Positions 1 to 60,640 of a stretch of 64,000 nt of DNA are shown here, piece by piece. The stretch's first letter is position 1, and each line of letters begins with the position of its first letter. The notes under the pieces are model-generated. The model was not told where the DNA came from and ran no database searches. It was given only the letters and a program-made list of their open reading frames with translations. Source of the stretch: Rhododendron vialii (taxonomy: Eukaryota; Streptophyta; Magnoliopsida; Ericales; Ericaceae). Position numbers and translations under genes: made by a program. The stretch covers positions 41,669,611 through 41,733,610 of the forward strand of contig NC_080558.1 in assembly GCF_030253575.1 (NCBI RefSeq), written 5' to 3'.

Positions 1-1250
1 ACCTGAAATGATTTCTCTTCAACTTGCCCTGCTTTTCCTGCCTTTTCGTATTCCTATTCTTCTCATACTCAGCAACCATGTCACTGAAGTCCTCTCGCAG
101 ACTATGCAACTTCTCCTCCTCCTACTCCTCCCTCACTTCCTCATACTTTGCAGGCAAAGCATCGTCCATTACTTCCAACTCTTCTGGTTGTAATGTGACA
201 TCAACCTCATCTGATTTCCGACACTTCAGCAAATAATTAACCCCTTTGCCAGCAGTCTTCTCTGGAGTGCCAGAGCCGCCAACGACGTATACATGAGGTG
301 TTCCAAGTACGGTCCCCAAAGCAATCCTTTCTTCCTTTTTCTCAAGTACTTGATAAGGATACTTATCTGGCTCCGTTCTTGGCCTCTCGCAAAGATCAAT
401 AACATCCGGTGTCTCAACACCAACAGATTGAATGTTGGCCTCTGATTCCTCTCCCCCGGTCTGTTCCTCTTCCTCGGTCAGCTCCACTTCTTCTTTTTCT
501 TCATCTTCTTCTTCCTCCAAATCACCCCAATGCTTGGTATTGCCGATTAATTCTTCCTCCTGGTTGTTCTGTTGTTGAACCCCAAAGACATCCCCGTATT
601 CACTGACAGGAGGTTTGCCCCAACCTCCGGGATGATAACCATAACTAGCTCCGGGAGGAATAGGAGCATTCACCCCAGGAATTTTCAAGTTTGGATAAGA
701 AGGTGGTGGACCATGTCTCTACTGATGAGCCACGGGGGAGGAGCGCTGCCTCGTGTCATACCACTTGCTTCTTTCAATAGCTGTGATATCTGCATCCCAG
801 GCTTCATCTCTCTCGTTAGCTCGACCTCAAACTCTTTCCCTTCGTAATAGCTATCACCGTGTGCTGTCAAATTCGGCTTTGGTTTGGGACTTGAAAAACG
901 CATCATGGCGAAAATCGATATCAGTTCTCCCCATCTTTGGATGCATCATCTTCTCACGTTGCTTCTGTTTAAGCTTCTCCTGTTTCTGAATGTAGCCCTC
1001 TCTGATTTTGCCAATCCCCGTAGCAGCAATAAAATCAGGAAGTTGAAAAGGCTGTTTCCCAAAATGGCGCTTCCCCTGCAAGTACTTTCTCTTATGACTC
1101 CAATGTCTTGGCACTGGTACAGAGTTATGATACGATTTGAAAAACACCAATAACTTAGGGTCGGCCGAAGTCACATCCCAAACATCTACCAAATCAGGCT
1201 TCAGTTCAGATACTTTCATTCGTCGATCAACCTTTTTCTTCTTATTATGA
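1..1250 (-). pseudogene. SF3B2: SF3B2 (SF3b145) pseudogene, copy 1, 5'-truncated, cut by window start
   Basis: Read on the minus strand this matches the C-terminal half of splicing factor 3B subunit 2, a U2 snRNP component that helps bind the branch site. Recognisable blocks are KLLVFFKSYHNSVPVPRHW (near 1150-1100), QPFQLPDFIAATGI (near 1050), YYEGKEFEVELTREMKPG (near 850-800), the proline-rich PPSYPNLKIPG segment, GYHPGGWGKPP, an acidic stretch, and a tail like EDFSDMVAEYEKN. It has no introns, begins in mid-protein, and is broken by frameshifts near 900 and 710 and by an in-frame TAG near 122, so it cannot make the factor. Lack of introns suggests a retrocopy. A second copy lies at 31429-32690 with different lesions. 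The extreme C-terminus runs to the window edge. Confidence 0.88.
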
Positions 1251-31428: not shown

Positions 31429-32690
31429 TTAGAACCTGAAATGATTTCTCTTCAACTTGCCCTGCTTTTCCTGCCTTTTCATATTCCTATTCTTCTCATA
31501 CTCAGCAACCATGTCACTGAAGTCTTCTCACTGACTATGCAGCTTCTCCTCCTCCTCCCTCACTTCCTCATACTTTGCGGGCAAAGCGTCATCCATTACT
31601 TCCAACTCTTCTGGTTGTAATTTGACATCAACCCCATCTGATTTCCGACACTTCAGCAAATAATCAACCCCTTTGCCAGCAGTCTTGTCTGGAGTGCCAG
31701 AGCCGCCAATGACGTATACATGAGGTGTTCCAAGTAAGGTCCCCTGAGCAATCCTTTCTTCCTTTTTCTCAAGTTCTCGATAAAGATACCTATCTGGCTC
31801 TGCTCTTGGCCTCTTGCGAAGATCAATAACATCCAGTGTCTCAACGGCAACAGATTGAATGTTGACCTCTGACTCCTCTCCCCCGGTCTGTTCCTCTTCC
31901 TCGGTAAGCTCCTCCTCTTCTTTTTCTTCTTCTTCTTCTTCTTCTTCCTCCAAATCACCCCAATGCTTGGTGTTGCCAATTAATTCTTCCTCCTGGTTGT
32001 ACTGTTGTTGAACCCCAAAGACATCCCCGTATTCACTAACAGGTTTGCCCCAACCTCCGGGATGATAACCATAACTAGCTCCAGGAGGAATAGGAGCATT
32101 CGCCCCAGGAATTTTCAAGTTTGGATAAGAAGGTGCTGGACCATGTCTCTGCATACTGATGAGCCACAGGGGAGGAGCACCGCCTCGTGTCATACCAATT
32201 GCTTCTTTCAGAAGCTGCGATAGCTGCATCCCAGGCTTCATCTTTCTCGTTAGCTCGACCTCAAACTCTTTTCCTTCGTAATAGATATTGCCGTGTGCTG
32301 TCAGATTTGGCTTCGTTTGGTACTTGAAAAATGCATCATGGAGAACCCAAAAATCGATATCAGTTCTCCTCATCATCATCTTCTCACGTTGCTTCTGTTT
32401 AAGCTTCTCTTGTTTCTGAATGTAGCCCTCCCTGATTTTGTCAATCTGCGTAGAAGCAATAAAATTACGAAGTTGAAAAGGCTGTTTCTCAATACCACGC
32501 TTCCCCTGCAAGTACTTTCTCTTCTGGCTCCAATGTCATGGTGTACTCGTACAGAGTTCCGATACGATTTGAGAAACACCAATAACTTAGGCTCGTCTGA
32601 AGTCACATCTCAAACCTCTACCAAATTAGGCCGCGAACAAATTTTCTTCAGATCAGATACTTTCATTCGGCCATCAACCCTTTTCTTCTT
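31429..32690 (-). pseudogene. SF3B2: SF3B2 (SF3b145) pseudogene, copy 2
   Basis: Second minus-strand copy of the C-terminal half of the U2 snRNP subunit SF3B2. A 327-residue open stretch (32511-31528) covers KRGIEKQPFQLRNF, YYEGKEFEVELTRKMKPG, PSYPNLKIPGANAPIPPG, GGWGKPVSEYGDVFG and a long acidic run. Upstream, the frame is broken by a shift near 32520 and a TGA in the block equivalent to VVEVWDVT. Downstream, a TGA replaces Arg in SQREDFSDMV near 31526, and the family tail continues to a natural stop at 31429. The homology starts in mid-protein without introns, as in copy 1, so both derive from one truncated retrocopy that was later duplicated as DNA. The long open stretch could still be transcribed. 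Confidence 0.88.
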
Positions 32691-34272: not shown

Positions 34273-34497
34273 AAAAAACTTGCTCCCTCCATTTCAAAAT
34301 GAGAGTATACTTTTACTTTTTTTTTTGTTATTTTTATCTTGTTTATTATCTTTTAATTTATAATATCTTTTATAATTTTAAAAATTTTATATGATAAAAT
34401 TAATTGAGATCTATCAAACAAAATTTATATTGGATATTTTTGGTATTATAGATTGAAAGATATAAACAATTTTTTGAAGTGTCTGGTATATTAACAT
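34273..34497. mobile_element. Left part of Stowaway MITE that hosts the MULE
   Basis: The left end CTCCCTCCATTTCAAAATGAGAG (near 34283) pairs with CTCTCATTTATAAACGGAGGGAG at 42910-42933, followed by TA. The MITE is interrupted by the Mutator-like element between its two halves. One half carries each copy of the 9-bp duplication. Confidence 0.65.
34489..34497 (+). repeat. 9-bp target duplication, left copy (TATTAACAT)
   Basis: Identical to 42897-42905. A 9-bp duplication is the hallmark of Mutator-superfamily insertion. Confidence 0.9.
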
Positions 34498-34971
34498 ACG
34501 GTCCAGCTCCTACACGGACCACCGCAATTTAACATAAAATGCGGACCTCTTTCGTAGCCGTTGGATTAGATCCAACGGCCAAGATCTAAAACGCCAAATT
34601 CGCGGGTCAAAGTCACTCAAATAGCTTCGGGTATCTGAAAACGGGTCTTATATGGAAACGGGTCATAACAAAATGGGGGTTTCCGTGGCCTTTCCTTCAT
34701 TCCACAGTTCACACGTAGAGAGAGAAAGGGAGGCGATTCAGAGAACACGAACGAAGAACGAAGAAGAACAGGAGATCGAAAACAGTTCCTCCCTCCCTCT
34801 CTCTCTTCTCGAACTCTCTCTCTTCTCCAACCCTCTCATGAAATCTGTCTTTCTATTCTATTCTATATGCGTTAACGCGTTAGGGTTTTTTTCGCGCAGC
34901 TCTTCAGTTCAAAGACGACAAACCAGACTCAACTAGACTCAAATTCACGAAGAAGAACCGAAGATCGAAGG

Positions 34972-35022
<51 letters not shown>

Positions 35023-35290
35023 CAGATTGAAGTTAGGGGTTTGAACCAGTTAGGGGTTTAGGGTTAGAACCAATCGGCCTTGTCTCTCCATTTTTTTAAA
35101 TTTCGGTTTCAAAATTTACAACCCACCAACAGTGGATTTACTACTATGTTCTTGAAAAAAAAAATGTTTCAAGAAATTGATGATTTGTTGAAGAAAAAAT
35201 GTATGGGTTTTTTTTTTTTTGTACGGCATTTTTTTTTTTACGAGGTTTAGGGTTCGAACCAATGAGTTGTTGAAAAAAAAGCAGACTTTT
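34498..35290 (+). repeat. Left terminal inverted repeat of the MULE
   Basis: About 790 bp matching the right terminal repeat in inverse orientation. It contains the presumed promoter, an untranslated exon ending at GATCGAAG|GTATCTCT (34970) and a CT microsatellite (34973-35019) just inside the intron. Confidence 0.8.
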
Positions 35291-35899
35291 TTTCGTTTAC
35301 CATTGTTGTTGGATTAGAAATCTTTATTATTCCACTTCTTTTTTTTGCTAAGCAATCTTTATGGGTGTTCTTTTAGTCAGTTCAAATTGAGAGGGTTAGG
35401 GAGTCAAACTTTGGCAAAGGCAATGATTGATTGTTTCATCCTCGTTATGGGTGTTCTTTTAGTTAGTTATTCCTCCTTGTTATGGGCTATTTTCACCCCT
35501 GTTGTAGATCCTGTTTGATTGATAGTTCAGCTATGCCATCCATTCACCTATTATGTACTTTCTTTCTTGGATAAACTATGCACCAAAGAAAACAGATTTT
35601 GGAAGTGGATCAATTTGTGCCTAAGCCTAGTCCATTAACAGTACATAGCAATTGGATGAATATAGGGAAGATTGGCTCTCAATTAATGTTACTCTGCAGC
35701 CAAATTTGAAGTCAATAAACCTTGTTGATTCTTTCTCGTACGTGAGTGGAAAGGAACCAGTTCTACGTATAATGTGTGGTTCAGATGAACCACCCCGAAT
35801 ATCCAGTTCTTTTGTGCACCATTCAACATATTGATGAGTGACATTTTGTTGATTATATGTCATTAGTCCTCTTCATTCTGTGTATGATATCTCAACAGG
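34970..35899 (+). other. 5'-UTR intron of the MULE plus-strand gene
   Basis: Donor GATCGAAG|GTATCTCT (GT at 34971) and acceptor CTCAACAG|GCTGG (exon resumes at 35899), leaving the ATG at 35907 eight bases into exon 2. The untranslated exon lies wholly in the TIR. Predicted from consensus only. Confidence 0.6.
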
Positions 35900-35906
35900 C
35901 TGGAAA

Positions 35907-36215
35907 ATGGGGAAATGGTATGTTGTGTTCGTTGGTCGGGTTCCCGGGGTTTATGACTCCTGGGCGGAAGCTCACGGTCAGATTACCGGCTTTAAGCACA
36001 ATTCCTTTAAAGGTTATGAGACTGAAGCAGAGGCACGAAAAGCTTATTCAACTTATTTGAAGAAGTGTGATGGTTCGTCTAGCAAGGAGTCCGACGGTTC
36101 CCATGACCAACAACCACTTGCACATCAATTGAAAATAGCACTTGAGCAGAGAGATAAGCTTCAAAAGGAGCTGGATGATCTCCGAGAAAAACTTGGTTCT
36201 TTAGCTTTAGGATGA
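35907..36215 (+). CDS. RNase H1 N-terminal (viroplasmin-like) domain protein with coiled coil, MULE-borne
   Basis: 102 residues from the first ATG after the predicted acceptor. Residues 4-50 fit the small hybrid- and dsRNA-binding domain found at the N-terminus of eukaryotic RNase H1 and in caulimovirus viroplasmin: WYVVFVGRVPGVYDSWAEA, Q25, GF (28-29), FK (34-35), Y37 and EARKAY (42-47). Residues 71-97 are heptad-rich and Glu/Lys-rich, likely a coiled coil for oligomerisation. No RNase H catalytic domain follows; the stop is at 36215. The gene lies inside a Mutator-like element, faces the transposase gene and takes its leader from the left TIR, the position of mudrB in maize MuDR. I infer an accessory role in transposition or nucleic-acid binding; the function is unknown. 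A captured host gene fragment is the alternative. Confidence 0.8.
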   Translation: MGKWYVVFVGRVPGVYDSWAEAHGQITGFKHNSFKGYETEAEARKAYSTYLKKCDGSSSKESDGSHDQQPLAHQLKIALEQRDKLQKELDDLREKLGSLALG

Positions 36216-37541
36216 TGGACCTTCTAACCTTATAACATTGACTCTGTTTTTGTTAGTTTGTAACCTTGTTTGGTGGTCTTGTACCACACATTATGCTGTA
36301 ACTTAGTTTGTTGGTACATGTAACTATGTAAGTTGTAACTGTTCTGGACACCTTCGCACTGGAAGTTACCATTTGGTATGAGAAGTTTGTCACTATGGTT
36401 CTATTTAAAATGGTGTATATTGCAGTGGGTGGAACCATAGACAGAAGCCAGGATATTGCAGATTTCTGTTATGTAATTTCTAGATTTTGACTTTTTATTC
36501 TAGGATTACTGGCAATAGACTTCCCTTTTTCATTTTTTAGTATTCAACTTCGTTTATTTGATTTTCAAGGCTTTGACTTGTGATTTCTCGATTTTTAGCT
36601 TTTTACTTTTTCTGATGCGCTGTGGGAATTAAAGCACTTGTTGGGGATTGGAAGGAACTTACATGTGTTTGGATTAAGAGTGTGTGTGGGTTCTATTGAG
36701 TTGTAAAGTTCACTTTTTTGCTGCTGTGTCTATTGATTCACACAGGCTTTTATTCCCTGATTGATTTCTTGTATCTAAAGTTCTTCAAAAATGGCTTTTG
36801 GGTATTGGTCTCTCCTATTTTCTTCCGTTTTGTCTCTAATTATCCAAATAGGTGACTTAGTAGCAGATCTTTTGTTTCTTCTCTATGTATTTGCATCCTA
36901 GCATAACTGGAAAGTTGGGGACCGAATCAAGCTAGTCATAACCAGCCCTATACAAAGTAACAAGATCCCATATTTCCTTCACAGCTTCAGCAAAGTAATT
37001 GACTGTGTTCCCTTGGCATCGAACTAACATTTTAGCATGCAACATACTAATAACTACAGATTGCGGATCCAGTGGACAACCTCTCTCCTCCCCCGTTTCC
37101 AGCACCTAATTTTTACATTATGTATGTACCCAAAACTACTACTACTGAAAACTGTAGATTGCCCAGGCAAACACACTTCACTAACTTTGAAGAAACTAAA
37201 ACCTAACTTACAACAAATTGATTAGACAAACACAAGTCCCACAATTACAAAAAAAAAATACACAAGTCGTTTAACTTAAAAAAAAAAAAAAACAAGTCCC
37301 ACAATTAAAATTACAATTCGTCGATCTTCCATGTCAGTACAACCTCTAACTAATTTAAGTCTCTCTATTGCCTGGCCATTTTATCCATCTCCATTTCTGC
37401 AAGACCTCTTCTTCTCACGAGTCATTTTTCCATCCCTGAAGCACGAATAGATCATAAAATGAATAAAAGAAAGAAAAAATGCAAACACTTGTAACAATTA
37501 AAATTTAAACAATTAATAATAACTGCAAACACTTACAATCT
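36216..37541. other. Intergenic region between the two convergent MULE genes
   Basis: About 1.3 kb without credible coding sequence. It must hold the 3' ends of both convergent transcripts. A short repeated phrase ACAAGTCCCACAATTA occurs at 37230 and 37290. Confidence 0.5.
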
Positions 37542-39904
37542 TCACTCATTGTCAGTGTCGTCCTCATCGTCGTCCTCATCATTCAACCTAGTATATTGTG
37601 AAGACCTAAGAAAAAAAAAACATGAACATACTTACATTCGGTATAGCAATATGATTTAAATTTTACATTAACATACGTAGATGCATACACGTACATGTTC
37701 AGAAGTTTTGGACAGTTCCTTTTGTCATGTGATTGCCCTGTTAACCCACAACCATTACATTTCCTTAATGCCTTGACAGCCTTCTCTTTTCCTCCTTTAA
37801 GTCGTTTACCACAACCCTTTGCCCTGACTAGAAGTGGTTCTTTATAAGTAAGTTGGCTTCCAAGAGAGACAGGAACACGAATGCCACTCCCTTCGCCATC
37901 TTCGCGAGAAATTTTCATGAGTGCAACCTTTTTTGTAACTGATTCCAAAGCTTCTTCCAAAACTTGTGTTCCCTCTTCAGTTAATAGGGCGTCATCAACT
38001 ACATTTGAAAATAGTTGGAAAACACGTTGTCGCCTCATTAATATTGAATTGCCACATAATTCTTTCCCCCTTTCCCCACCCAAGTCATCCAAAACCCTGC
38101 TAGCTTTTGCTGCAACAGTCCACCTTTGCAATATGTACTGATCAGACAGTGCCATAATCTGCATTCTAGCAAAATAGGCTAGCATGTGCCGACATGGAAT
38201 TCCTTCGAATTCAAACATTTTACAACTACAGCTGACATAATTTGATGACTTATTTACCAAAATCTCACGAAATCTCGAACCTTCTATTTCTGCCCTCTGA
38301 ACATTCCACAAACAACGATGTTCATCCTCATCCGTCTTCGTAAACACATAAGCATCCTTCTGATGGATTTCCCTTTGAAATTTGTAAAAAATAGTCCTCG
38401 TATATAATTCACTCATTCTCTTTTCCAACAACCACGAGGTTTTCAACACAGGCTTCTCATTCACATCTTTATGATCTAAATCCAATTCATTATGCCGTAA
38501 ATTTGAAAGTGCTCTATCAAACCGTGTCACAAACTCCAACAATGAATTTTTCTTAGACACGTACCTCTTGAAGAATGCATGATCACTTTCACTTCTTTGA
38601 CTACTTGTCATATGGGCTGAGAAGATGTGTTTCGTATAGGCAGGAATCCATCTCGCACGGATTGTGTACATGTCATTTAACCATTCATTGCTGGACAATT
38701 GTGCTTTTTGCACAATCTCTAACCATCTTGCTTCAAACTCATCTGGGTTCTCAGAATTCCATATACATTTTTTAAACTCCTCATAATGTTGTACATATGC
38801 AAGTGCACCTAGTTTTTGAGAAAATTTATTCACAATGTGCCAAATGCATAACCTGTGATAGGTATTTGGAAGTGTAGAAGCAATTGCTTTTGCCATTGCC
38901 GGATCCTGATCTGTTATGATCATTTGGGGTGGGCCTCCTGGCATTGCTTTCAACCATTCTTTAAAAAACCACTCAAATGACTCACAAGTTTCATCACTTA
39001 AAAATGCACACCCAAAAAGCGTTGTCTGCCCATGGTGATTAACCCCTACTATGGGTGCGAAGATCAAAGAATATTTATTTGTGTCGTAGGTACTATCAAA
39101 CACCACCACGTCTCCAAAATACTTGTATGACTTTCTACAAGTCGTATCGGCCCAAAAACAATGCGTCATCCTCTGCTCATCATCTGTCTCGAATGTAAAC
39201 GCAAACCCGGAATTCTTTTCTTTTTCACTCTGCAAATACTCATATATCATATTCCCATCATGTCCATCTACTAATTTCTTCTTATCCCTTCTGTCATTGT
39301 AAAGATCTTTTTTTGTAAATCCAACATTTTGAAGACCTCCATTTTGCAACTCCAAAATACTCATTTGTTGAAAGGGTGGCACATTGGCGTCTCCAAGTTG
39401 TTGCATTAAACACTTTTGGACAGGTGTCACTTTACGATGAGAGTGCAAAAGATGCACCTTCATTGGGGTCGTTAGAGGGTGATTATGACCCTCGACAAAT
39501 TGGGAGACTTCATATCCTTCACCTCTCCTCACAACGGTCACTTTTGCAGGACAATCCTCTCTAATTATACCCCGTTTGTGTTTTATGGGCCTAGTAGTTG
39601 TTGGTTGTTTCTTCCCTTGTTTGAAACAAACAAACTCCTTCCTAGTGGTTTGACCATCCGTATTACTCTTGCTTGAATGGACTCGCACACTAAATCCTCC
39701 GTGATATGCATAATTGTTGTAGAATGTATAAACTTCCTCTAAGTTGGCAAACTGTTGTTCAATTTTCGGTATGAATTCGTCTTTAACTTGAGGATTGATA
39801 AGTACCTCTGAAGAATTCGCGGAAGATTGAACCGGATTTTCAGATGATTGAGCTGGTAAAGATGGCAACAGTGATGATAGTTGTATATCATCCAACGACT
39901 GCAT
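37542..39904 (-). CDS. MULE transposase, FAR1 type, 757 residues, two coding exons
   Basis: Catalyses cut-and-paste transposition in the nucleus. The start is the ATG at 39904 (MQSLDD), one base after a strong acceptor (TTTCATTTTGTAG), so the in-frame ATG at 39952 is probably intronic. Domains: FAR1/WRKY-GCM1-like DNA-binding domain about 53-145 (C93, C118, H140, H142); DDE core with FD270STY, TD332QD and E439 in SQRSES; SWIM zinc finger C559-x-C561-x9-C571-x-H573; C-terminal zinc knuckle C716-x2-C719-x6-H726-x4-C731. The uninterrupted frame runs to 37583. I prefer splicing 37695 (AACAT|GTACGTG) to 37605 (TTTCTTAG|GTCTTC), which gives a short Asp/Glu-rich tail ending at 37542. All catalytic residues are present. 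The TIR and target-duplication context argues for a transposon gene, not a domesticated FAR1-related factor. The leader exon lies in the right TIR. Confidence 0.9.
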
Positions 39905-40264
39905 CCTACAAAATGAAAGAGAAAACAATAAACAAAATAGGAATTTGTCCAATAATTATACTAGCAAAGAAAACAAAATTGTGGAGAAATTTATTCTACA
40001 AAACTCGCACTGTTGTAACTCTCTTGAAAATCTTGCAGACCTAGATAGGACATATTTTCATTATCTGGCCTCTTATACAACATGTTCACTTAAATGGATA
40101 GACAGCTAGATGTCTAATGATTTATGTAGATCTTGTACAGTTGTATGCATGTTCCAAAAGGCCAAATATTTCAGACCACTTCAAGTAATGATTCTCACCC
40201 TCCCGGATCATATTTACCCAATCAATATGATAGTATATGCGAGTGAATAACAAAGGCAGTGTCA

Positions 40265-40523
40265 AGTCTGGTTTTTTTTCAAAAACTCATTGGTTTGAAC
40301 TCTAAATCCCATACAAAAAAAAATAGCCGTACATTTTTTCTTCAACAAATCATCGATTTCTTAAAAAAAAAATGAACAATTTTTTTTCAAGAACATGGTA
40401 GCTAGTAAATCCACTGTTGGTGGGTTGTAAATTTTGAAATAGAAATCTAAAAAAATGGAGAGACAAGGCTGATTGGTTCGAACCCTAAACCCCTAACTGG
40501 TTCGAAACCCTAACTTCAATCAG

Positions 40524-40587
<64 letters not shown>

Positions 40588-40642
40588 TCGATCTTCGGTT
40601 CTTCTTCGTGAGAGAGATACCTTCGATCTCCTGTTCTTCTTC
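40265..40642 (-). repeat. Inner part of right MULE terminal inverted repeat
   Basis: Read on the minus strand this matches 34760-35290: the exon end GATCGAAG|GTCTCTCT (near 40585), a long GA/CT microsatellite (40529-40584) and the CCCACCAACAGTGGATTTAC block. It was separated from the outer part (42641-42896) by insertion of an LTR. Confidence 0.8.
40529..40584. repeat. GA microsatellite in the right MULE TIR intron
   Basis: About 28 GA dinucleotides in the inverse position of the CT run at 34973-35019, directly after the untranslated exon donor of each MULE gene. Confidence 0.95.
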
Positions 40643-40647
40643 GTTCT

Positions 40648-42635
40648 TGTAGACACCCCATTCTGGACTGTCCAGATAACGTTATTTGTCGATCTTATAT
40701 TTCCCCAATGATGATTTTAGTCGAAAACAGTTTAAGGACAAAGGTGTGGTCGAGCTTTGAGCGTCCCGAACCTCTCTCAAACACCTTTCAAAACCCTTCA
40801 AACCAGAGCCAAACAGCCCCAGCAAAACCCAATTGGCATACGCCAGTGTCCTGGAGGCGTACGCCAGTTATCTGCCACGTGTCAGTCATCGACCAGTGGC
40901 TTAGCTTTTACTGGCGCACGCCATTTACAAGTGGCGCACGCCAGTCAAACCCAGTCAAATCAACTTTATTCAGCAACTTGGGCGGGACTTTTGTGCCACC
41001 CTGACGTCGGCTACAGTGTCCCTGATGATAGCTTTCGGCAGGGGCGTTCCCTCTCTCTCCTACACCCCCCATCAAGGCAAGTCCCATGCATTTAATGCAT
41101 GGGAGGCTCCAACCTTGCCTTAGCCAGCCAAACAGGCCTTAGCACCTAACTGATCTCAGTCTTCCCCCCCCTATAAATACCCCCCTTGCATTCATTTGCA
41201 AGGGGTTGGCCTCATTAAGAAGTAGAAGCTCTCTCCTTCCTCCTTTCTTGCTCTCTATCCCTTTTTCTTCCATTGAAAGAGAAAAGAAAACAGCCCACTT
41301 CCACACACCCTGCTGACATCCAGCCACCATCTAAGCTTCCATCTCCAAGCTTTAAAGTTCAATACCACCTTCAATCCTCAAACAAAAAGGTATACCACCC
41401 TTGTGTCCCTTTCTGTTTTTGGCCCCTGAGGGGAACCAGTGAGGCCCAGGCTAGTAAGTAATACTAGTCCTGGCCTCAAACTGGCAAAATACGACAAACG
41501 TATGAGGTGATACATGGCGCACGCCAGTAACCATATGCCGTACGCCAGTCATGGTAGAACGAGCACTACTGGCGTGGGGATCATGGATCGTCATTCCTCT
41601 TATTTTATCTTTCTGTCAGTCACCCTTGCATGCTAAATAACCAGCTTACCGCTTTCTGTATATTTAGAACTGTTTAGATGTAGTAGTTAATACTCGCTTC
41701 TTATCTGCTCAAAAGGCCCCTGGGATCCTTCTGGTCATGCTCCAGAGCCCAGATGATGCAAAAGCCAAGCACTGGATTAGGGTCCAACGTGCGTACGACA
41801 GTCCATGACTGGCGTACGGCAGTTAAAGCTAGGATCCAGTGGCTGGCCCTTTGCATCTTAGTTCAATCCTGGCCTCCTTTCTGTCCCCACATTGTTTAGG
41901 GGGTTTCCTGTTTATTTTCATGGCTTCAAGCCATCTCATCTGTCTGTAAATGTATATATCCTGCTTATTTAACTGCATGGTTTGTCCTGGGTGTGCGCTG
42001 GTCCCTTTCCAGAGCCCAGAGGATTGCAAATAGGGACTGTGAAGCTTAACAAGTGGAGTACGCCAGTTATGAGGTGGCGTGCGCATGTACAATCAGCATG
42101 CAGTGGCTCGGCCAGTGCATGCTGACGGAACCTGCTTACGTTCCTTCAGGGCAGCGTACTTCAGTTTATTCAAGCTACTCAGTACTTGTTCTCAATCTAT
42201 GTTTAGCATTGTAATCAAAATCATCCATAAACATTTTGTCGCCTAATTGCAACTTGTTAAAGTTTTAACTCCCCATTAACTGTTCCCCCGCCCTAACTGG
42301 CTAAAAAATGATCAAATGAGAGAAAAATGCAAATGTTTTATAAAACGCCCGAGTAGAGACCGATCTCCGGATTGGGCGAGAGGGGTGCCATAAAACCCTT
42401 CCCCTCTCGTAACATGGCTCCCGAACCTCAGATATCGAAGGTGACGACGGACCGGTCTACGCCTTTTCAAAATCAAACAAACGTGGCAAACGTTTTTTTC
42501 GAGTTCGGTTCCTTGGGTGCTCCTACCGCTAAAACCCGAGTGGCGACTCCGAATCGAGGCGTTTCGCCGCGCTCTTCCAACAAAAAGGGCCGCGCCCAAT
42601 TTTACGAATAAAATTTCCGGGGGCGCGTGCCCACA
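40648..42635 (+). mobile_element. Solo LTR (1,988 bp) inserted in the right MULE TIR
   Basis: Begins TGTAGACACCCC and ends CGCGTGCCCACA, with the 5-bp target duplication GTTCT on both sides (40643-40647 and 42636-42640). No internal retroelement sequence remains, so it is a solo LTR left by recombination. Length and ends suggest a Ty3-gypsy Tat/Ogre-like element (inference). It carries a TATA box and about ten variants of a palindromic motif described in the findings. Confidence 0.85.
41172..41179 (+). promoter_or_regulatory. TATA box within the solo LTR
   Basis: TATAAATA in a C-rich context (CCCCCTATAAATACCCCCC), well placed for an LTR promoter about 525 bp from its start. Confidence 0.55.
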
Positions 42636-42640
42636 GTTCT

Positions 42641-42896
42641 TCGTTCGTGTTCTCTGAATCGCCTCCCTTTCTCTCTCTACGTGTGAACTGTGGAATGAAG
42701 GAAAGGCCACGGAAACCCCCATTTTGTTATGACTCGTTTCCATATAAGACCCGTTTTCAGATACCTGAAGCTATTTGAGTGACTTTGACCCGCGAATTTG
42801 GAGTTTTAGATCTTGGCCGTTGGATCTAATCCAACGGCTACGAAAGAGGTCCGCATTTTATGTTAAATTGCGGTGGTCCGTGTAGGAGCTGGACCG
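42641..42896 (-). repeat. Outer part of right MULE terminal inverted repeat
   Basis: Inverse copy of 34498-34753 with only a handful of substitutions visible. It is separated from the inner part by the solo LTR. Confidence 0.9.
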
Positions 42897-42905
42897 TATT
42901 AACAT
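42897..42905 (+). repeat. 9-bp target duplication, right copy (TATTAACAT)
   Basis: Identical to 34489-34497. It is followed by the right end of the host Stowaway MITE (about 42906-42933). Confidence 0.9.
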
Positions 42906-42934
42906 AAACTCTCATTTATAAACGGAGGGAGTAA

Positions 42935-53800: not shown

Positions 53801-54610
53801 GTTCGAATCCTCATGGAAGAGGTGCTTGACCCCATTGTAACTATTAATAACTAACCCCTAACACCCTATCGATTGGCAGAAAAAACACTCAAAACTGGGC
53901 AGCGGATTTGTGGGTTTAATAGGAGAAAGGATGTCGAGCTCCATTATGTAGATTTGTTTCCTCCGAGCAACATCCACGAGCGTATCAGTGGTCTTAACAC
54001 TGCAACTATTTCTTCCGGCTCTTTCTTCAATTTTGTTTTCTTCTTTTTTTTTTATATATTTTTTTCAGACATTTTTGAATCCTTTGTTGTATCTGTTTAG
54101 AACTATGAGCCGTGTAGCTTGTACCTGATTTTTATCAATACAACGTGCATTTGTTCATTCCTTTTTATAAATTAAAAAAAAACAGGGGAATTAGGAATGA
54201 GACCCTAAAAACCCTAAAATTTGACCGTTGAAAACCCAAGATCTCCCATTCAATTCGTATCTCAATCAAATCAAAATTGCTCTCATTCTTTATTAAAACT
54301 TGAGTTACAATACTTCAATCCCAAGTAATCCATCCCCCTGAATCAAAATCCAAACCCAAATCCCACCCAGTTTAGAATCTATGAGTTCTAACCACTTCCC
54401 AATTCCAAAACTTCACCTCCAAGTCATTCTTCCACAAACCCCACTTCCATTCGGCTTTGGTTTTCAGTCCTATATTTACGGGATCCCTCAGAAATCACAG
54501 AAACCCAGAAGCAACAAAAAGAGTTCGCATTGCCACGAAACCGAAAAAAAACGAAAGAAGTTCTTCCCTTTGCCATCATCTGTTAGAAATTTGCAGTCTG
54601 GTGAAGAAGA
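53801..54610. other. Upstream region of the first B3 gene
   Basis: No separate gene. The last 250 bp before 54611 are C-rich and probably form the leader of the B3 gene. A short upstream ATG reading frame (54381) overlaps the start in another frame and could act as an upstream ORF. Confidence 0.4.
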
Positions 54611-55531
54611 ATGGAGGAGTGGAGTGTTGACGATTACCGTAAAATCGATAAGCTTTTGAAGGAGACTAAAGAGTGGCTTCACCAACTGGATAGCAGGAAG
54701 AGACTGAACGTTGTTCGGGAGATTCTCAAGAACCCTCATTACGATGAGTCTGATGTATACATCCTCTGTCTCAACGAGTATCAAACACCATCTGATCATA
54801 AGTTGATTCATAACCCACCTGAGCCTAGAAACCCTTCCAAGATTCGGTTTCGGATGAGAGAACAGAAACCCATCAAACCCATTACGGAGGAAAAGAATAT
54901 GGTGACGAAACCTGAAAAAAGAATGGGTCGAAAAGGGCCTCGTGATGAGGATTGGAGTGGCGGTGAAGAAGAAACGGGTAGGGAAAAGAAGAAAAGGGTG
55001 GACAAGAAGAAGAAGATGGTGAATCCTGTGGTTTTACCAGAAAAACAACGGGATTTGCCGGCAGAACTCAAGGATAGGATCCGAGCTCTAAACGGGTCCG
55101 ATGTCATTATGGTCATTGAAAAGACACTCTACGAAACGGACGTGAACACTGGCAACGGGCGCCTCTCCCTCCCGGCGAGACAAATCGACATGAGATTCCT
55201 AACTGAGGAAGAGAAGGTTTTCCTGGCAACAAAACAAGACGGGAGCAAGGTCACGCGGATAAGATCGAGGATCATCGGAGAGGGAGGAATGGAACAGGGG
55301 ATATGCCTATGCAAGTGGAACATGCCCAAGAGCTTATCGGAGAATGTGAGTGTAATATACAATCTTCTTTCCGGGTGGAACGATGTTTTGAAGGCTCATG
55401 AACTCCGCAACGATAAACTCTGCAGACATACGACAGTGCAGTTGTGGTCATTCAGAGTAGAGGGAAATCTCTGGTTCGCTTTTGTTAAAGTTTCAAAATC
55501 TCCAGATTGCAATTGTAAACGATATGCGTAA
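54611..55531 (+). CDS. DUF313-type B3 domain protein A, single exon, 306 residues
   Basis: Plant B3 proteins bind DNA through a seven-stranded pseudobarrel, and this subgroup (Arabidopsis At2g31720/At1g05920 type) is presumed to be nuclear and transcriptional. The N-terminal part (about 10-60) is an alpha-helical segment, LLKETKEWLHQL with VVREILKNPHYDESDVY. A highly basic stretch at 124-136 (REKKKRVDKKKKM) is a likely nuclear signal. The B3-like domain spans about 149-294, opening LPAELKDRIRALNGSD and containing GRLSLPARQ, LSGWNDVLKAHEL and VQLWSFRVEGNLWFAFV. The ATG at 54611 matches the MEEWSV/MEDVEWSV start of its neighbour at 58576-59481. No break is visible. It is more diverged from the two minus-strand copies than they are from each other. 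Its targets are unknown. Confidence 0.88.
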   Translation: MEEWSVDDYRKIDKLLKETKEWLHQLDSRKRLNVVREILKNPHYDESDVYILCLNEYQTPSDHKLIHNPPEPRNPSKIRFRMREQKPIKPITEEKNMVTKPEKRMGRKGPRDEDWSGGEEETGREKKKRVDKKKKMVNPVVLPEKQRDLPAELKDRIRALNGSDVIMVIEKTLYETDVNTGNGRLSLPARQIDMRFLTEEEKVFLATKQDGSKVTRIRSRIIGEGGMEQGICLCKWNMPKSLSENVSVIYNLLSGWNDVLKAHELRNDKLCRHTTVQLWSFRVEGNLWFAFVKVSKSPDCNCKRYA

Positions 55532-58575: not shown

Positions 58576-59481
58576 TCAATCTTTTTCCTTTACCTTCCAG
58601 AGTTTAACAAGTGCAAACCAGAGGTTTCTCTCCACTCTAAATGACCAAAGTTGCACTACCCATTTCGCACACAGTTTGTGTTCGTCCGCAACTTCATTCC
58701 AACCTTTCACCACATTATATATTCCTTGGCTCATGTTCCATTGCCTTATATCTATCTCGTGCTCCTTCCCGTTCTCTGCGATAAGCCGCGCTGCCATCTT
58801 GGCAATGCTTTCCCCATCTCGCCTGGCGGCCAAAAAGGCCTTGTCCAGAAACTTCTTGTCTTTGAGTTTACCCTGCGGGAGAGACAGGCGTCTGTGGCCA
58901 GGGCTCATGTCCGTGGCGGTGAGTTCCTTTTGAAGTACCAAAGTTGCCTCGGTTCCCCCAAGATTTCGGATTCTTTCCTTGAATTCAGCAGGCAGGTCTG
59001 GTACGATTTCCGGTAAAACAACGTTATTCACCTTCTTCTTTTTTTGAACCAAGTTATTCACCTTCTTCTTGTTCGCCCTCTTCTTTTCTTCTTCCTCATC
59101 AAATTCCCAATCACTGCTGCCCCGTGGCCTTTTTCGACCTGTTATTTCAGCTTTCTTGCCTGCCGCCTCTTCTTCCTCCCGAACGGGTTTGGTGGGTTGC
59201 CTTCCACTCATCACGAATCGAATTCTGCGAGGTGGTTTCTTAGGCACGACAGAAGGCGGCTTGTACGATGGGTCCTGTATCTCAATCATGGTGAGGTAAT
59301 ACACATCCGTGTCATCGAAATTCGGGTTCTTGAGCACTTCTCTGATAATCTCCAATCCTTTTTCGGTATTAAGTTTAACTAGATACTCTTTTGATCGCTT
59401 CAATACCTCTTTGAATTTGAAGTAATCATACCCGGACTCCTTAACCTCGGAATCATAAACGCTCCACTCGACGTCCTCCAT
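58576..59481 (-). CDS. DUF313-type B3 domain protein B, single exon, 301 residues
   Basis: Same family as the plus-strand neighbour at 54611-55531 and convergent with it. From the ATG at 59481 the protein starts MEDVEWSVYDSEVKES, then FKEVLKRSKEYLVKLNTEKG and the conserved IIREVLKNPNFDDTDVYYL. A basic linker follows with GRKRPRGSSDWEFDEEEE and a repeated KKKVNN. The B3-like domain opens LPAEFKERIRNLGGTE and includes HRRLSLPQGKL, KGWNEVADEHKL and VQLWSFRVERNLWFALV, ending KVKEKD. The frame stays open to an ATG at 59601, which would add a 40-residue hydrophobic leader; I prefer the internal start because it matches gene A. Presumed nuclear DNA-binding protein of unknown targets. Confidence 0.87.
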   Translation of the reverse strand: MEDVEWSVYDSEVKESGYDYFKFKEVLKRSKEYLVKLNTEKGLEIIREVLKNPNFDDTDVYYLTMIEIQDPSYKPPSVVPKKPPRRIRFVMSGRQPTKPVREEEEAAGKKAEITGRKRPRGSSDWEFDEEEEKKRANKKKVNNLVQKKKKVNNVVLPEIVPDLPAEFKERIRNLGGTEATLVLQKELTATDMSPGHRRLSLPQGKLKDKKFLDKAFLAARRDGESIAKMAARLIAENGKEHEIDIRQWNMSQGIYNVVKGWNEVADEHKLCAKWVVQLWSFRVERNLWFALVKLWKVKEKD

Positions 59482-59601
59482 TTTTTCATCGTCTCCTTCT
59501 TTCTTCGACAACAGCAGCACTATGAACTTCAAGAACAGTAGTTCGAGTAACAGAGGATGGTAAAGGGAAGAACCTTTTTTGGTTTTTTTGTTCTGTGACA
59601 A

Positions 59602-60640
59602 TGAGAATTCTTGGTATATAATTGGTCAGAGGCTACTTGGGAGTGAACTTTTCCGAAATTAGGAACTACTTGCGGCCCAAGTTTTCTTTAATTAAAGGAA
59701 TTTGTTTTTTGTTTATTAAGATTATTAAGGGATTCATCTTAAAAACACAAAACAAATACTGGCCGTATGATTTTTCTGATCAAAAGGCAAATCGAGTAAG
59801 AATTAGGAAAGAACTCTGATTCTATGATTTCTGAGAAAATCCCGTAAATTTGGGACACTGATGTGTGAATCAAAGTTAGTAATTCCTAAGTTGAATAGAA
59901 GTGAGAAGTAGTTAGAACTCAAAGTTTCTAAACCGGGTGGAATTTGGATTTGTTTGGGACACAGAATTGAATGGGAGATCTTGTTTTCCAACGGTCAAAT
60001 TTAGGGTTATGAGGATCTCATTACTGATCCCTTCTTTTTTGTTAATAAGGAACGAACAAATGCAGATTGAGAAAAACTTTTTAACAGAGCTTTCCGTGAA
60101 TAGTTGTTTACGGAGTTGAATCGCGCGCGTCCATTTCGGCTTTAGATGGTCCGGATTTAAATCTGAATCGTCCAAAGCCGAAACAGGTAAGGTTTTTGAG
60201 GTGTTTTCTGAGGTGTATTCGAGATTTTTGAGGTGTGGCCGTGGCCCCCATAAAGTTTGTCTGAATCGGTCTCGACTTTGTAGGGCTTTTTGTTTATGGT
60301 GTTTTATGGAAAGTGCTACAATACACACATCTTATTTGAATGTGTATTGTATGCACCCTCGTTGAAACACACCAAAATGTTTTGAATCTATTGCTAAAAA
60401 GTTACAAATCATATTGATGAAAAGTTGTGAATTTTTAGTATAAAAATTACGATACGAAATAAAATGTTATTAATGACCGATCGTACAAGTAATTTTTTAT
60501 GAGGTGGCACAATATGAACCACACAATAGGGGTATATGGTACACACTTTAATTAAAGTGCTAGTAATTAATTTGTTTCGATAACTAAACCGAACGGTATT
60601 TATTCTTCGGTGCGAAGTGCACCATCTGCAAACCCTTGAT
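59602..60640. other. Gene-free stretch upstream of B3 gene B
   Basis: Presumed promoter region of the minus-strand B3 gene, then unrelated DNA. A short foldback surrounds GGTCCGGATTTAAATCTGAATCG (60150), with TTTCGGCTTTAGATG pairing with CGTCCAAAGCCGAAA. No gene recognised. Confidence 0.45.

Follow-up and report, generated by a model that had tools for sequence, protein, structure and literature searches.

A small RNase H1 N-terminal-domain gene as a probable accessory of a FAR1-type Mutator-like element in Rhododendron vialii

The window, a 64,000-nt stretch of Rhododendron vialii contig NC_080558.1, contains a Mutator-like element (MULE) that spans window positions 34499-42896. Between its terminal inverted repeats (TIRs) a 102-aa open reading frame (ORF) opposes an open transposase ORF, confirming the two convergent genes of the original prediction. 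The features are collected in Table 1.

Table 1. Features of the element and its flanks (window positions)
Feature	Position	Strand	Basis or remark
Left target-site duplication, TATTAACATA	34489..34498	.	
Left terminal inverted repeat, about 790 nt	34499..35288	+	
Probable 3' splice site directly upstream of the small ORF	AG at 35897-35898		by eye
Small gene, 102-aa coding sequence with stop	35907..36215	+	
RNase H1 N-terminal (Cauli_VI, PF01693) domain, residues 3-45	35913..36041	+	Pfam
Probable coiled-coil C-terminus, residues about 66-99	36102..36203	+	by eye and sub-cut-off Pfam matches
Predicted last transposase exon, acidic tail	37542..37605	-	by eye, GT/AG splice sites
FAR1/MULE/SWIM transposase, main exon, 734 aa	37703..39904	-	open reading frame and Pfam
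Right terminal inverted repeat, inner part	40264..40647	-	
Nested solo-LTR-like insertion, TGTAGACACC...GCCCACA	40648..42635	.	later arrival, outside the MULE proper
Right terminal inverted repeat, outer part	42636..42896	-	
Right target-site duplication, TATTAACATA	42897..42906	.	

The TIRs are long, as had been predicted. Their outer 261 nt are 98.9% identical, and similarity reaches further inwards (588 of 612 aligned bases identical), giving repeats of about 790 nt on the left and about 640 nt on the right. The target-site duplication, read earlier as 9 bp, is actually 10 bp long, and with a 9-bp choice the two element ends no longer match. The right end predicted at 42896 is kept, and the left end moves from 34498 to 34499. 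Such TIRs with a 10-bp duplication place the element in the Mutator superfamily, target duplications of MULEs being 8-11 bp (PMC6446971, Table 1). Overlooked in the earlier reading was a 1988-bp TG...CA insert that splits the right TIR. It is bordered by a GTTCT duplication (40643-40647 and 42636-42640), and a copy on C1, 98.9% identical, has the insert site uninterrupted. Because the insert separates the outer TIR from the transposase gene, TIR-driven transcription of the transposase may be impaired in the window copy.

Pfam recognised the predicted MULE-type DDE transposase (PF10551, E 7.5e-32), again as in the Mutator superfamily, together with its FAR1 (PF03101, E 2.3e-18) and SWIM (PF04434, E 1.2e-7) parts; a FAR1 N-terminus with SWIM is the domain arrangement of the Jittery group. 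The zinc knuckle also predicted, CNGCGLTGQSHDKRNCP, holds as a reading by eye and has no zinc-knuckle match in Pfam. A PDB sequence search with the transposase returned matches at E 0.25 and above only.

The small protein carries the viroplasmin-like domain ascribed to it: Cauli_VI (E 3.8e-15) is its sole domain above the Pfam cut-off, at a value that rules out a chance ORF. In agreement with the original prediction, Pfam shows no RNase H domain in the 102 residues. The coiled coil was partly upheld, by inspection and by weak matches to coiled-coil families, all of them below the cut-off. Against PDB, the small protein gave weak sequence matches (E 0.004-0.019) to yeast and human RNase H1 only (1qhk, 6vrd, 3bsu), and its hydropathy maximum of -0.56 indicates that it has no membrane segment. 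By analogy with RNase H1 heads, the Cauli_VI head would bind RNA:DNA hybrids or double-stranded RNA. Searches of viral contig and genome contig collections confirmed no relative of either protein, as expected for a plant gene.

Genome-wide searches of R. vialii, whose counts refer to the matches listed, bore out the expectation that the pairing recurs. Of 149 Cauli_VI matches listed, fourteen have a relative of the window transposase (64 transposase rows) no more than 6 kb away, and all 14 are convergent with it; chance co-location averaged 0.23, with a maximum of 2, over 1000 position shuffles. With all three transposase lists pooled, one of 16 Cauli_VI matches within 6 kb, a 601-aa ORF, is non-convergent. 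A tree of 30 transposases placed nine of the 14 Cauli_VI-paired transposases: the nine form two clades, three coil-type and six anchor-type, with an SH-aLRT of 100 each. In the window clade the domain is joined to a probable coiled coil; in the second clade it is joined to a C-terminal membrane anchor, with hydropathy peaks of 2.64-3.33 in nine full-length MULE anchor-type ORFs versus -0.56 in the window protein. A 50-column tree of the Cauli_VI domain is compatible with both single and multiple origins of the MULE forms (p-AU 0.453).

In sister FAR1-MULEs the same convergent place is occupied by a gene for a GRF zinc finger, coil and anchor. Thirteen of 65 GRF matches listed are within 6 kb of transposase relatives and convergent in 13/13 cases (shuffle mean 0.10, maximum 2); one of 17 is non-convergent when the three transposase lists are pooled. 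Eleven GRF-type rows fall in one 18-row clade of the 30-transposase tree, the other seven rows of which have an undefined accessory. By coordinates, 34 of 61 distinct transposase rows are without an accessory. Seven of these proved to be of the GRF/coil-anchor type, three showed neither accessory, a further seven gave no match in the 1.5 kb scanned, and the remaining 17 were judged by coordinates only.

Another sister clade (L053, L055, L068) has open transposases with no Cauli_VI or GRF gene within 3 kb downstream and seems to be single-gene. Lack of the small ORF, which the original prediction would have counted against itself if consistent among related MULEs, was seen in this clade. Since sisters carry GRF or show neither, the lineage as a whole cannot be said to have the Cauli_VI protein as its accessory, and a small gene fixed in every FAR1-MULE is rejected. 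What survives of the predicted MULE lineage with a hybrid-binding accessory is a recurrent pairing, in fixed orientation, in two clades; as a statement about the whole lineage it fails, and it was also too narrow.

Cauli_VI genes also accompany an unrelated transposase. Of 169 Cauli_VI places, 53 have a listed PF13359 match at a distance of at most 8 kb, and in 52 of the 53 the PIF/Harbinger transposase (DDE_Tnp_4) is upstream on the same strand (chance mean 0.75, maximum 5, 500 shuffles). Among the matches listed, Cauli_VI genes are commoner here than beside FAR1-MULE transposases. With regard to the Myb/SANT partner gene and the short TIR with a TAA/TTA duplication of PIF/Harbinger elements, Myb_DNA-bind_3 was matched in the two ORFs tested (4.5e-10 and 1.5e-8), and at C6:14533390 one right end fits the expectation and adjoins a TAA, the stretch read there containing no left end. 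Taken at sequence level, DNA transposons of two superfamilies appear to carry small nucleic-acid-binding accessories.

The MULEs could instead have acquired the exon for the N-terminal part of a host RNase H1, or a piece of an endogenous caulimovirus, the small gene being a hitchhiker without a role. MULEs are well known to take up gene fragments (PMC6446971, PMC2528002), and this genome has long, caulimovirid-looking ORFs with the same domain. Moreover, the small ORF is whole at only two of five window-clade loci, C2:41.7 and C1:22.15, which are 99% identical to each other; it contains a stop at C2:37.64, is split across two frames with a stop at C9:11.48, and is a remnant beside an open transposase at C12:14.85. 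This poor integrity counts against a dedicated accessory and for gene capture. However, in the anchored clade purifying selection acts on the Cauli_VI domain, with a pN/pS of 0.34 (95% interval 0.18-0.55), similar to the 0.34 of the transposases of the same MULEs. The same convergent place is occupied in two clades. All relatives with at least 80% identity (five loci) lie within or beside pieces of the window element, and the next scored matches reach at most 52%. Among the 150 of 209 candidates scored, none fell between 52% and 80% identity, and no host source closer than 52% was seen; a conserved host orthologue at a non-transposon locus was the sign of simple capture named in the original prediction. 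A genome search for RNase H returned large retroelement-like open frames, uninformative on the host RNase H1 gene. Recent capture is rejected, given the selection on the domain and the lack of a near host source in the matches scored; capture of a roleless gene in general we consider improbable.

The PIF-type Cauli_VI class gave a domain pN/pS of 0.33 (0.19-0.52), and the estimate for the whole small ORF of the window clade was 0.51, from three sequences only. Changes outside the domain, pooled over four disjoint anchor-type pairs, numbered about 41 to 11, indicating no constraint, and the anchor-type tail alone gave 1.5 (0.7-4.2). One of these pairs, L018/L024, has five nonsynonymous and one synonymous change within the domain. 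Since related transposons of two kinds carry the helper in a fixed position, the small gene is probably a working part of the transposon and not captured junk.

We think it rather likely that the window holds a FAR1-type Mutator element, Jittery-like by its domains, with a dedicated second gene belonging to a wider set of transposon accessories. These would share one plan: a single small head for nucleic-acid binding, either Cauli_VI or a GRF zinc finger, followed by a coiled coil, a C-terminal membrane anchor or both. Those of MULEs are convergent with the transposase, those beside PIF/Harbinger transposases codirectional with it. That they form a single class across at least two superfamilies of plant DNA transposons, exchanging heads between sister lineages and acting on element-derived hybrids or double-stranded RNA, at membranes where an anchor is present, to evade silencing, is a possibility that falls a little short of even.

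For function we favour, tentatively, a small protein that binds hybrid or double-stranded RNA derived from the element and thereby blunts siRNA silencing of the transposase. Convergent transcripts, TIR hairpins and R-loops of the element are candidate substrates, and the anchored forms would place such binding at membranes. Next in likelihood, though unlikely, the small protein would protect or guide nucleic-acid intermediates in excision and integration. In a rival reading it would be a transposition cofactor like maize MURB, binding excision or integration intermediates or the transposase and unrelated to silencing, which we also rate as unlikely. The convergent layout is that of MuDR, in which integration apparently depends on mudrB (PMC6446971); branched nucleic acid could be a substrate for a hybrid-binding fold, and coiled coils would permit pairing. 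Yet a C-terminal membrane segment, as in the anchored relatives, is odd for a chromatin-bound protein, sister clades bear a different head or, once, none seen, and the same head adjoins the unrelated DDE_Tnp_4 transposase. Action on the mRNA of the element (export, stability, ER translation), in the manner of caulimovirus TAV, seems the least probable of these roles. Cauli_VI is a domain of TAV, a translation transactivator (PMC7102451), and a tail anchor would put the anchored forms on a membrane; however, the window form has no anchor, and the TAV-like ORF of this genome has a 576-residue open frame in the stretch read.

We compared the element and its small protein with known systems. RNase H1 has an N-terminal Cauli_VI domain, and the 102-aa window protein differs in having no catalytic RNase H domain. 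Caulimovirus TAV (P6), an inclusion-body protein, is far longer, with the domain inside, whereas the domain of the small protein is N-terminal; by inspection of one member, the TAV-like class of this genome consists of 593-601-aa ORFs. The FAR1 N-terminus, MULE transposase, SWIM and TIRs resemble Jittery-group elements (group 36, PMC6446971; CitMule, PMC4334395). CitMule is described as 6.8-6.9 kb long, with TC stretches near the 5' end and A/T-rich targets (PMC4334395). For the plant sub-group within group 36, Table 1 of PMC6446971 lists a single ORF, TIRs that measure 39-292 bp where there are any, and a target duplication of 8 bp or of unstated length. The window element differs in its convergent second gene, also found in its relatives, its longer TIRs and its 10-bp duplication. 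Maize MuDR (mudrA/mudrB) has two convergent genes between long TIRs, but the window has a FAR1-type transposase and a Cauli_VI small gene, the comparison with MURB being by description only.

Accessory genes are known from other elements. ULP1 recurs in distantly related MULEs, among which are Jittery-like families from grape and melon (PMC2528002), but ULP1 is a protease domain, unlike Cauli_VI. The VANDAL/Hiun genes vanB and vanC, vanC being anti-silencing, are termed divergent proteins in the relevant passages of PMC6446971, which mention neither Cauli_VI nor GRF. Abermu is a MULE with an opposite-strand ORFR of Ka/Ks below 1, but the relevant passages give ORFR no domain and group Abermu near MuDR, far from Jittery (PMC9168764). 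A Cauli_VI gene, capE, does occur on a Pleurotus DNA transposon, which in contrast is a fungal Helitron; the gene sits in a single long copy and was interpreted there as captured (PMC4289320). In its pertinent passage PMC4083042 cites CaMV TAV and no transposon-borne viroplasmin gene. In the literature searched, which left out Repbase, preprints and most subscription journals, no report joins viroplasmin, Mutator-like and transposase, in line with the view that the combination had not been described. This statement concerns the Cauli_VI pairing; the literature on GRF and transposons was covered in small part.

Among MULE accessories, mudrB is called a protein of unknown function (PMC6446971). 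A recognisable nucleic-acid-binding fold, swapped in sisters, also present beside an unrelated transposase and often joined to an anchor, leads to a precise testable prediction of hybrid or double-stranded RNA binding, membrane location and an effect on silencing or transposition. Many small Cauli_VI and GRF proteins of plant genomes may be transposon genes and not host genes. Relatives of the window element have been recently mobile: two copies on C7 are 99.8% identical across 6261 columns.

As had been proposed, the window contains a real Mutator-like element, which extends from 34499 to 42896. It is flanked by a perfect 10-bp duplication, TATTAACATA; with the 9-bp duplication proposed originally, the element ends mismatch each other. 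Pfam searches recovered the expected domains, FAR1, MULE and SWIM in the transposase and Cauli_VI in the small ORF. The right TIR carries an insert whose TG and CA ends and GTTCT flanks fit a solo LTR, and the element without it measures 6.4 kb. A copy on contig C1 (22148305-22154708) is 98.9% identical to the window element over 6182 columns and 97.7% over 264, and is uninterrupted at the insert site. The (TA)n run around this copy hides the limits of its target duplication. Such runs host four of six assembled relatives (C7:22026647-22033409, C2:14092631-14099912, C3:27680430-27687755 and C1:22148305-22154708). Within the insert nested in the right TIR, 11 sites match GGCGTACGCCAGT when up to 3 mismatches are allowed.

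Features located in the window
Feature	Position	Strand	Basis or note
TIR inner limit, left	35288		limit of TIR similarity
TIR inner limit, right	40264		limit of TIR similarity
Insert in right TIR	40648-42635		1988 bp; TG start, CA end, GTTCT flanks
B3-domain ORF, At2g31720-like	54605-55531	+	match, 1.3e-14
B3-domain ORF, At2g31720-like	58576-59625	-	match, 5.1e-11
PSP-domain ORF, smaller	122-718	-	similar to 31528-32535 ORF
PSP + DUF382 ORF, larger	31528-32535	-	domain matches

We searched the whole genome (532,647,506 bases, 13 contigs; window at C2:41669611-41733610) with the small protein (149 matches listed, best 150 of 209 candidates scored) and with the transposase (64 rows listed, 61 of 1116 candidates scored). 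All listed small-protein matches of at least 80% identity (6 rows, 5 loci) lay in or beside DNA-level pieces of the window element, and the next listed rows reached at most 52%. The small ORF is whole in two of these five loci, the window (C2:41.7) and C1:22.15. It has a stop at C2:37.64, occupies two frames with a stop at C9:11.48, and survives only as a remnant adjoining an open transposase at C12:14.85.

The original prediction held that a hybrid-binding protein is the accessory factor of a MULE lineage. Pairing of a FAR1-type transposase with a viroplasmin-domain ORF does recur in this genome: at least 14 of the 149 Cauli_VI matches lie within 6 kb of relatives of the window transposase, all 14 convergent, against a chance mean of 0.23 and maximum of 2 (1000 position shuffles; C4 and C13 lengths approximate). 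When lists of PF10551 and PF03101 matches were added, 15 of 16 listed pairs within 6 kb were convergent, the exception being a 601-aa ORF, as were 16 of the at least 17 of 149 within 12 kb. Counts drawn from listed matches are lower bounds, and absence of a partner among them is weak evidence. The convergent pairs support the accessory claim, whereas sister FAR1-MULEs carrying a GRF gene, or showing neither gene, speak against it as a rule for the lineage.

Another convergent gene, seen 3′ of other FAR1 transposases, comprises a GRF-type zinc finger exon, a coiled coil and a hydrophobic C-terminus; Zn_ribbon_GRF Pfam scores (9e-5 and 0.0024) were both under the curated cut-off. Genome-wide, 65 GRF matches were listed, at least 13 of them within 6 kb of window-transposase relatives and convergent in 13/13 (chance mean 0.10, maximum 2 in shuffles); against all three transposase lists, 16 of 17 listed pairs were convergent. 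By coordinates, among the matches listed, 61 distinct transposase rows comprised 14 with Cauli_VI (one a remnant only, one with a stop), 13 with GRF, none with both and 34 with neither. Sequence reading 3′ of the transposase covered 17 of these 34, and found a GRF exon in three (L045 with L069, L049, L052) and a coil-anchor exon alone in the stretch read in four (L050, L051, L056, L065). No Cauli_VI or GRF accessory was seen in the 3 kb downstream of the transposase in L053, L055 and L068, and no accessory match within 1.5 kb, a scan that may fall short, in L046, L047, L048, L057, L058, L059 and L061. At L068 (C11:27582962), sequence like the relatives' far end, a putative TIR, starts ~100-400 nt past the transposase match, which would leave a second gene no room.

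A quick-search tree of 30 transposases (SH-aLRT support only; 9 of the 14 Cauli_VI transposases included) grouped the three rows of the window clade (coil type) and six of a second Cauli_VI clade (anchor type) into one clade each, with support of 100. Eleven GRF-labelled rows (four by coordinates, seven by reading) fell inside one 18-row clade (support 94) with seven rows of unknown accessory, and L053, L055 and L068, in which no accessory was seen, formed the sister group of the anchor type (support 100). Under the drawn midpoint root, the coil-type and anchor-type clades do not group together, which implies either two gains of the Cauli_VI head or its replacement in the GRF clade.

Proteins of the window clade carry a probable coiled coil after the Cauli_VI domain. 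Those of the larger, anchor-type clade (e.g., C7:22028147, C2:14094131, C1:17971751) have a linker leading to a hydrophobic C-terminus resembling those typical of tail anchors. Hydropathy peaks at 2.64-3.33 in nine full-length anchor-type ORFs with a start codon (13 loci compared) and at -0.56 in the window protein. The other peaks were 3.17 (L019, ATG absent at the usual place), 1.81 (L024, tail shortened), 0.86 (L017, tail in another frame) and 1.13 (L030, truncated). DNA similarity between anchor-type subfamilies forms an island from ~50 nt 5′ of the start codon to some 40-130 nt past the stop; closer pairs align beyond it. Two C7 copies share 99.8% identity over 6261 columns, with TIRs of 752 nt at 99.7% in one and 744 nt at 99.3% in the other, indicating that this family has been mobile recently.

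Among the 13 anchor-type loci, nine entered the codon comparison (L017, L030 and near-identical L023 and L026 excluded), which gave pN/pS of 0.34 (0.18-0.55) for the domain, 0.73 (0.43-1.40) for the linker and 1.5 (0.7-4.2) for the tail. Transposases gave 0.34 pooled in the anchor clade (n=6) and 0.32 in the window clade (n=3), whose small ORF gave 0.51 from three sequences holding little data. Four disjoint anchor-type pairs showed ~21 nonsynonymous versus 12 synonymous changes in the domain (per-site ratio ~0.47, hand-calculated from counts; 5 versus 1 in one pair) and ~41 versus 11 outside it, near neutral.

Cauli_VI genes also accompany PIF/Harbinger transposases. The Pfam search for this domain (best 150 of 227 candidates scored) listed 150 matches, each above the cut-off, and these combined with the small-protein search gave at least 169 places. 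At least 53 of the 169 lie within 8 kb of 150 listed DDE_Tnp_4 matches (chance mean 0.75, maximum 5; 500 shuffles), with the transposase upstream on the same strand in 52 of 53 listed pairs; the exception is near a second, oppositely oriented copy. Ten PIF-type loci were read (L027, L028, L031-L038), of which five are among the 53 and the other five are without a listed DDE_Tnp_4 match. A hydrophobic C-terminal segment (2.25-3.01) is present in nine (four of those five), L032 being truncated; domain pN/pS was 0.33 in seven (L032 and near-identical L033 and L038 excluded). Both ORFs tested from the opposite strand contain Myb/SANT. C6:14533390 has one element end of the kind expected for PIF/Harbinger, and a second was not found within the stretch read. 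The domain tree does not resolve common ancestry of the MULE and PIF forms.

ORFs of at least 270 aa occupy 38 of the 169 places, 23 being 593-601 aa, among the matches listed; the one read (L072, C4:35741300-35743300) resembles the TAV gene of an endogenous caulimovirid. Some of the 63 short ORFs without a partner among the matches listed may be pieces of this long class. One frame, at C1:44980079, reaches 2369 aa. For L015 (C6:30137682), a 112-aa Cauli_VI ORF whose tail is coil-like and lacks an anchor, there was no transposon partner among the matches listed.

The Cauli_VI domain of RNase H1 binds RNA:DNA hybrids and dsRNA. In the alignment to human RNase H1, the window protein's Trp19, Phe34 and Lys35 correspond to W43, F58 and K59, which we take to be hybrid contacts; the human K60 position is glycine in the window protein and lysine in the anchor type. 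A 2008 study by Shivaprasad, cited in PMC7102451 and PMC4083042, reportedly found that CaMV TAV interferes with RDR6-dependent siRNAs. Long MULE TIRs are connected to siRNAs in the available text of PMC6446971. Together, these points would fit an anti-silencing role for an element-encoded protein that binds hybrids or dsRNA. A membrane anchor would sit better with action on RNA than at chromatin. The main rival is a role as transposition cofactor.

In the available parts of the sources, MULE accessory genes include those of MuDR, VANDAL and ULP1 (PMC6446971, PMC2528002), and a Cauli_VI gene occurs in a fungal Helitron (PMC4289320). Jittery-group elements are single-ORF (available text of PMC6446971), whereas the window element has a second gene. 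The word 'viroplasmin' is absent from the main text of PMC6446971, and we found no report of a MULE or PIF/Harbinger element with a Cauli_VI or GRF gene in the available parts of the literature searched, including PMC6446971, PMC2528002, PMC4334395, PMC9168764, PMC3710099, PMC4289320, PMC7102451 and PMC4083042. We conclude that the window element is a Jittery-like MULE whose kind of second gene is without earlier report in that literature; the wider accessory pattern beyond it merits survey.

The two PSP-domain ORFs in the window are presumably SF3b2-like, and partial duplication may explain the smaller one.
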